Part shown: positions 24,855 through 43,201 of the stretch, one piece after another
Layout: each line of letters starts with the position of its first letter
How positions within the stretch are numbered: position 1 is the first letter of the stretch
Assembly: GCA_020056635.1 (NCBI GenBank)
Contig: JAGVHI010000006.1
Location: 1-44,567 of the forward strand
Direction: 5' to 3'
Length of the DNA stretch: 44,567 bases
From: an archaeon
Lineage (GTDB): Archaea > Micrarchaeota > Micrarchaeia > Anstonellales > Anstonellaceae
The notes under the pieces: model-generated
Told to the model about the DNA's origin: nothing
Seen by the model: the letters and a program-made list of their open reading frames with translations, nothing else
Database searches by the model: none
Translations under genes and position numbers: made by a program

Positions 24855-25061
24855 GCGGGAGTCGCCTAGCGGTCAATGGCGCGAGGCTCAGGACCTCGTC
24901 CCTTAGTGGGTTCGTGGGTTCGAACCCTTTTCTTTCCCGGAAAGAAAAGCGTTCACGGAAAAGAAAGCCGTGACTGCGAAAAATATCGGAAGCTCCGCTT
25001 CACGTTTTTTCGCCCTGAAACATGGAAAGAAAAGGATTGCCCAAAAATCCCATCTCCCGCA
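24855..25061 (+). tRNA. tRNA-Leu (CAG anticodon) with a long T-loop intron
   Basis: Acceptor GCGGGAG (24855-24861) pairs perfectly with CTCCCGC (25054-25060), with discriminator A25061. Anticodon stem CGAGG/CCTCG (24882-24886/24894-24898) contains loop CTCAGGA with anticodon CAG (24889-24891), which reads CTG leucine codons. A class II variable arm (CCC...GGG around 24900-24910) supports leucine. T stem GTGGG (24914-24918) pairs with CCCAT (25049-25053). The T-loop between them carries about 123 extra bases. Spliced, the T-loop reads TTCGAAT and the tRNA is about 84 nt. Confidence 0.88.
24925..25047 (+). other. tRNA-Leu T-loop intron (~123 nt), strongly structured
   Basis: A perfect 12-bp helix joins 24926-24937 (CCTTTTCTTTCC) to 25024-25035 (GGAAAGAAAAGG). 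Inside are TCACGG/CCGTGA and GCGAAAAA/TTTTTCGC with an inner CGGA/TCCG hairpin. GGAAAGAAAAG also occurs at 24939-24949, so a second fold competes. The central splice helix is imperfect, so boundaries are approximate. Confidence 0.6.
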
Positions 25062-42978: not shown

Positions 42979-42996
42979 CTAAATTCTATTTCTCAG

Positions 42997-43077
42997 GTGG
43001 CGAAACGCCCGAAAGCGATATTCGCCACAGTAAAGTTTCTCTTTTTCATCAAAATTTTTCTCTTCGAAAGAGAAAAA
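42997..43077 (+). ncRNA. Two stem-loops downstream of the 42-aa gene
   Basis: Stem A: GTGGCGAA/TTCGCCAC (42997-43004/43021-43028), with inner CGC/GCG (43006-43008/43015-43017). Stem B: TTTTTCTCTT/AAGAGAAAAA (43055-43064/43068-43077, loop CGA), ten perfect pairs. May be a terminator or a small RNA. The rest of 42979-43201 has no gene. Confidence 0.4.
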
Positions 43078-43201
43078 GTTTGAGGCAAGCGCTTCCGGTT
43101 TAGCCCGCACAGCCCATGCGCGGTGTTCGGAGTTGCACTCCTACTGCTAGAAGTGCTTCCAGAGTCGATGACCTTTTATTCATGGTTACAGAGAACATAA
43201 C

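Follow-up and report, generated by a model that had tools for sequence, protein, structure and literature searches.

A T-loop intron of a Micrarchaeota tRNA-Leu(CAG) gene carries a copy of a dispersed element with a proposed triple-helix core

Introduction

A tRNA-Leu(CAG) gene lies within a 44,567-nt stretch of archaeal DNA, hereafter the window, and its T-loop is interrupted by a long structured insert. The locus raises the question of what this insert is: how it might leave the transcript, whether it carries a function of its own such as a guide RNA, or whether it is a relic of an inserted element. The window corresponds to C7, one of 27 contigs in a 1.1-Mb genome (G000). It encodes an isoleucyl-tRNA synthetase whose closest matches come from Candidatus Micrarchaeota, with identities mostly of 53–60%.

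The insert has the layout of an archaeal tRNA intron

ARAGORN and Rfam both recognise the 5′ part of a tRNA-Leu(cag) at 24855–24938. We enumerated all excisions with a bulge-helix-bulge (BHB) score and ran the resulting products through ARAGORN. Removal of 24922–25044 leaves a complete 84-nt tRNA-Leu with the T-loop TTCAAAT, and the 123 nt removed agree with the T-loop intron of about that length in the original prediction. The parts of the gene are listed below.

24855–25061, + strand: tRNA-Leu(CAG), interrupted gene (ARAGORN and splice-site enumeration)
24855–24921, + strand: exon 1, ending at T-loop C56 (ARAGORN, splice-site enumeration)
24916–24919, + strand: 5′ strand of the BHB helix, GGGU (sequence; pairing score with 25039–25042)
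24922–25044, + strand: predicted 123-nt intron in the T-loop at position 56/57 (top BHB score among excisions restoring full-length tRNA-Leu(cag))
25039–25042, + strand: 3′ strand of the BHB helix, GCCC (sequence; pairing score with 24916–24919)
25045–25061, + strand: exon 2, comprising the 3′ part of the T-loop, T-stem, acceptor and discriminator, AAATCCCATCTCCCGC A (sequence, splice-site enumeration)

The splice motif consists of a 4-bp helix, GGGU/GCCC, flanked by two 3-nt bulges (UC^G and AA^A), and the cuts fall at TTC^GAA and CCAA^AAAT. The locus has both marks of an archaeal BHB tRNA intron, the motif itself and an excision that restores tRNA-Leu(cag). Adjacent cuts score equally or 1 point lower, so the exact intron position depends in part on homologues of the same layout; these are Ala CGC and Phe GAA and, by inspection, Ser CGA, Arg TCT and Ser GGA. 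The intron of Tyr GTA lies at 58/59 and was confirmed once a second intron, in the anticodon loop, had been removed. Two further interrupted tRNA genes occur in the window: tRNA-Gln(CTG) (1201–1315) has a short T-loop insertion of about 38 nt without the Y-R-R′ core described below, and the D-loop of tRNA-Val(TAC) (1042–1155) is interrupted by a short hairpin intron (GCTTTGCTTATGGGCAAAGC...).

The G000 genome encodes a 399-aa epsilon2 splicing endonuclease that aligns end to end with the ARMAN-2 enzyme (4fz2/9w2k; E = 5e-130). It retains the loop motif GTYK, and this loop has been implicated in broad specificity (PMC12397907). The host endonuclease is predicted on these grounds to accept non-canonical sites, and we read the 123-nt insert as a BHB intron that this enzyme probably removes.

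The intron has two competing folds and no guide-RNA boxes

Folding divides the intron into the following elements.

24926–24937, + strand: pyrimidine arm (Y), CCTTTTCTTTCC, predicted to pair either with the R arm (hairpin 1) or with 25024–25035 (closing helix) (folding)
24939–24949, + strand: purine arm (R), GGAAAGAAAAG, in hairpin 1 (folding)
24953–24973, + strand: hairpin 2, with the stem TCACGG/CCGTGA enclosing R′ (folding)
24957–24967, + strand: second purine strand (R′), GGAAAAGAAAG, mirroring the R arm (exactly so over GAAAGAAAAG) and lying largely within the hairpin 2 loop; proposed third strand (mirror tests, folding)
24975–25013, + strand: hairpin 3, TGCGAAAAATATC...CGTTTTTTCGC, with a conserved 3-nt bulge and pairs that covary between copies (covariation)
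25024–25035, + strand: distal GGAAAGAAAAGG, predicted to close the intron by pairing with the Y arm (folding)

The internal hairpins of the original prediction are recovered, as is its 12-bp closing helix (24926–24937 with 25024–25035). The second occurrence of GGAAAGAAAAG (24939–24949 and again 25024–25034) does provide for a competing fold, and in energetic terms the competition is close, with constrained minimum free energies of −80.3 kcal/mol for the local hairpin and −80.2 kcal/mol for the closing helix. The ensemble prefers the closing helix (P 0.88 vs 0.12 for the local hairpin), which is also included in the splice-competent fold. Compared with its dinucleotide-shuffled versions, the intron is more stable (z −3.8). 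Between the two occurrences lies GGAAAAGAAAG, which mirrors the stem arm and is not a further competing copy. The distal third purine copy recurs, imperfectly, in tRNA-Leu(GAG) of a relative (G004) and is absent from most copies of the element described below. The predicted partner of the Y arm in the Leu intron is mostly this distal copy rather than R, which counts against the triplex explanation that we favour.

Archaeal introns with C/D guide RNAs exist, for example in the tRNA-Trp of Haloferax, and the Leu intron resembles them as a long structured tRNA intron. It differs in having no C/D pair, in line with what had been seen at the outset: no C box is found at one mismatch or fewer, and a single CTGA stands isolated. 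Searches against Rfam return no family other than tRNA in 24855–25061, and no group I intron in the Leu intron. The suggested guide-RNA function consequently finds no support, and a C/D guide RNA intron was rejected because the box pair is absent.

The intron interior is a copy of a dispersed element

The interior of the Leu intron matches many sites within its own genome. A covariance model built from 15 copies identifies 16 strong copies in G000 (E < 1e-7), nine of them inside tRNA introns. These nine comprise T-loop introns of Leu CAG, Ser CGA, Arg TCT, Ala CGC and Tyr GTA and anticodon-loop introns of Glu TTC, Glu CTC, Gly TCC and Leu TAA, where the contexts of the two-intron Ser and Arg genes were assigned by eye, without confirmation by ARAGORN. 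Four copies lie near a tRNA (just downstream of Lys TTT and upstream of Gly TCC, Thr and Arg) and three elsewhere, among them a second copy in the window.

42990–43079, − strand: copy of the element lying outside tRNA genes and bearing a mirror of its own, AAGAGAAAAA / AAAAAGAGAA (covariance-model match, E 1.8e-11)

Shorter related forms are present in G000 introns of Phe GAA, Asp GTC, Gly CCC and Ser GGA. Similar sequence in the introns of different tRNAs, here nine in a single genome, is the mark of a transposed tRNA intron family. As 7 of the 16 strong copies lie outside tRNA introns, splicing alone does not account for copy survival, a point that weighs against the explanation favoured below. 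The suggestion that the intron is a relic of an inserted element was close, to which we add that its interior is one copy of a dispersed element recurring in many tRNA genes. At two loci (L071, G000:C21:38515; and L239, in G002), the element is flanked on one side by the complete tRNA and on the other by a short duplicate of a tRNA 5′ end, an arrangement that resembles a target duplication.

A second purine strand mirrors the first

Copies of the element share a common anatomy: a pyrimidine arm (Y), a loop, a purine arm (R), a CC..GG turn, and a second purine strand (R′). R′ is R read backwards, a mirror and not a complement, and is separated from it by the short C-then-G turn. When R′ strands were swapped among 26 copies, which had been chosen partly by their mirror, the strands matched their own R better than any of 5000 swaps (23.3 vs 21.2 ± 0.4). 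Among 159 purine-armed hairpins chosen without a mirror requirement, 64 have perfect 8-nt mirrors, compared with 32.7 ± 3.5 when downstream sequences are swapped. Perfect direct matches between R and R′ number 19 in the same set, and on this comparison R′ was rejected as a competing direct repeat of R. In 56 hairpins chosen by arm and turn only, with R′ not used in selection, the A-runs beside the turn match in length between the two strands in 52 (13.4 on average and at most 28 in 20,000 shuffles); since the copies share ancestry, all of these mirror tests overstate independence, and many of the loci were retrieved with a model built from mirror-bearing copies.

The copies contain 14 different combinations of arm and third strand, at least nine of which are exact mirrors. 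The tRNA-Tyr orthologues illustrate how they vary, with GAGAGAAAAG..GAAAAGAGA in G000 and GAAAGAAAAAA..AAAAAAGAAAG in G004, all three strands having changed together. Inspection by eye revealed no consistent complement of R′ elsewhere in the element. No mutation process known to us generates mirror repeats; the simplest explanation is therefore selection for R.R pairing along the Y:R stem. Mirror equality is the hallmark expected of a purine-motif (R.R-Y) triple helix, and we suggest that the element may form one.

Our best explanation, to which we assign a probability of roughly 0.6, is that the tRNA-Leu(CAG) insert is a BHB intron housing a probably selfish dispersed element with a proposed R.R-Y triplex core. 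The intron at T-loop position 56/57 would be excised by the epsilon2 endonuclease of the cell, and its interior would be a copy of a dispersed Micrarchaeota element, most likely selfish and presumably of no benefit to the host, that survives chiefly in positions from which it can be spliced out (introns of tRNA and rRNA) or immediately beside tRNA genes. R′ would fold back antiparallel onto R to build a purine-motif triple helix (A.A-U, G.G-C) on the Y:R stem, and this triple helix could make the intron compact and stable and bring the splice sites together. To our knowledge, cellular RNA has no established example of a long natural triple helix with a purine third strand. The three-strand covariation over the 14 combinations makes the proposed triplex directly testable with short synthetic RNAs.

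Orientation and covariation bear on whether the proposed triplex is RNA or DNA

Triplexes of the purine motif are familiar from DNA. RNA is generally considered a poor third strand in this motif, so an RNA version would be unusual. Where removal of the element restores a tRNA, the element is in sense orientation in 24 cases and antisense in none, as scored from an automatic list in which not every isotype name or intron length can be trusted. This ratio favours RNA, or a form of copying that keeps orientation.

The mirror could instead act at the DNA level, where a purine triplex of intrastrand or H-DNA type would promote copying, recombination or insertion of the element in the manner of bacterial class II motifs, and the introns would simply be sites that tolerate insertion. 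Such an origin would suit the retention of the mirror in copies outside tRNAs and a tandem duplication of the element with a tRNA-Ala 3′ fragment in one relative (G010). The Y-R-R′ order is also that of the class II intrastrand triplex motifs (ITxF), which run 5′-pyrimidine, purine, reverse-Hoogsteen purine-3′ with R′ mirroring R, and for which a link with genome instability has been drawn (Holder et al. 2015, PMC4666352). Class II motifs are G/C-rich, and the ITxF search rule limits their loops to 1–6 nt, whereas the present element is A-rich and its second loop is often longer; the R-R′ turn of the Leu copy has 7 nt (24950–24956), although in many other copies it has 6 nt or fewer. The element also differs from these motifs in sitting within stable-RNA introns in a fixed sense orientation, for which there is no obvious DNA-level reason unless it is inherited by copying. 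The turn and hairpins 2 and 3 moreover behave as RNA helices, and the pairs of hairpin 3 covary across copies. We consider a DNA-level origin of the mirror unlikely.

The element is patchily distributed and looks mobile

Searches at the level of the order and the phylum found matches in 13 of 84 and 23 of 301 genomes respectively (the latter at E ≤ 1e-4 and in at least 10 Micrarchaeota families), the phylum-level counts being lower bounds because of strict filters. The element had no match in 18 archaeal genomes from outside Micrarchaeota. In relatives it occupies tRNA introns (D-loop, anticodon loop and T-loop), 16S rRNA, and sites just downstream of intact tRNAs. At least four copies lie within the 16S rRNA gene of G273 and one more in its leader. 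In G027, three tRNAs, assigned by eye as Ala (element in the anticodon loop), Leu (D-loop) and Gln (D-arm), share a core identical over about 50 nt, suggesting recent mobility; identical cores at three unrelated sites look selfish. More tentatively, and at somewhat less than even odds, we propose a phylum-wide class of mobile BHB mini-introns in Micrarchaeota tRNA and rRNA, whose conserved core would be an RNA purine-motif (A.A-U / G.G-C) triple helix kept by three-strand covariation.

The element might also be an RNA useful to its host, with the triple helix shielding the intron after excision, probably as a circle, so that it acts as a stable small RNA, or aiding the folding and splicing of long introns and the termination of tRNA transcripts. 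Conservation of Y-R-R′ in orthologous Ser CGA, Tyr GTA and Glu CTC genes of two genera, where the G004 copies occupy the same position as those of G000, is in keeping with such a role, as are nine intact tRNAs followed after 2–10 nt by the start of a Y arm in sense. Its patchy occurrence across the phylum and the selfish look of identical cores at unrelated sites argue the other way, as does an uninterrupted tRNA-Leu(CAG) in G031. The original prediction had named such a relative, together with an absence of RNA from the interval, as evidence against its proposal; the G031 gene shows only that the intron is optional. We consider host benefit distinctly improbable. The tRNA-Leu(CAG) of a further relative, G034, is also interrupted at 56/57, by a short intron of unrelated sequence.

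Several individual loci add to the range of contexts. The 16S rRNA gene at L248 (G273, 1834–2330) has several insertions of Y-R-R′ type, each with its own mirror pattern, and an apparent 23S rRNA gene (L246, G028:C80) carries a Y-R-R′ copy. The duplication in G010 (L233, G010:C62:12695–12877) is a tandem one of 109 bp, made up of the element and the 3′ end of tRNA-Ala(GGC).

No transposase common to the carriers of the element was found. An IS200/IS605 (Y1) transposase was rejected as the common mover, with none present in the five carriers G000, G002, G004, G010 and G027. Tyrosine integrases occur in several carriers and, in the neighbourhoods fetched, have the element nearby only at G000:C4 and G010:C37. 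The first of these sites (L263, 1624–2823, − strand) encodes a tyrosine recombinase that carries a zinc ribbon at its C terminus; roughly 1 kb away lies a tRNA-Leu(TAG) whose intron is of the Y-R-R′ type, and similar integrases are encoded on G000 contigs C12 and C20. Viral contigs contain no exact match to three Y-R-R′ patterns.

Relation to other archaeal tRNA introns

Large-scale transposition of BHB tRNA introns has been described in Thermoproteales (Fujishima et al. 2010, cited in PMC4033280). The Thermoproteales introns are comparable in that similar introns occur in many tRNAs, at non-canonical positions and several per tRNA, alongside a broad-specificity endonuclease. They differ in phylum and endonuclease type, and the element reported here adds a shared structured core with a mirror third strand and is also found in rRNA and adjacent to tRNAs. 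The substrates of the ARMAN-2 epsilon2 endonuclease share the enzyme type, the phylum and non-canonical intron positions with the present introns, but a shared intron element or triplex is not mentioned in the available sections of that report (PMC12397907). Ordinary spread of tRNA introns of the Thermoproteales kind through A/T-rich, low-complexity introns, with the mirror a matter of chance or composition, could draw on the known transposition of whole introns between archaeal tRNAs (PMC4033280) and on A-rich arms that yield short mirrors by chance (about 33 of 159 when swapped), but is very hard to reconcile with a copy-specific mirror match far above swaps, with the A-run test, and with patterns like AAAAGAGAAA/AAAGAGAAAA in 16S introns.

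A full-text search of freely accessible papers found no earlier account of the element and none joining Thermoproteales intron transposition with bacterial triplex motifs. A BHB intron housing a probably selfish dispersed element, as we prefer to read the Leu insert, would add a second example, independent of the first, in which the proliferation of tRNA introns goes together with a splicing endonuclease of broad specificity, and a defined mobile core with identical young copies bears on the origin of archaeal tRNA introns. A second repeat family (GAACCCTTTTGCTCGC...GCAAAAGCGTTCACGGAAAA) also occurs in tRNA introns and elsewhere in G000 (L072, G000:C9:6130; L070, G000:C5:1630; L078, G000:C8:31651), and identical 18–19-mers are present in several relatives.
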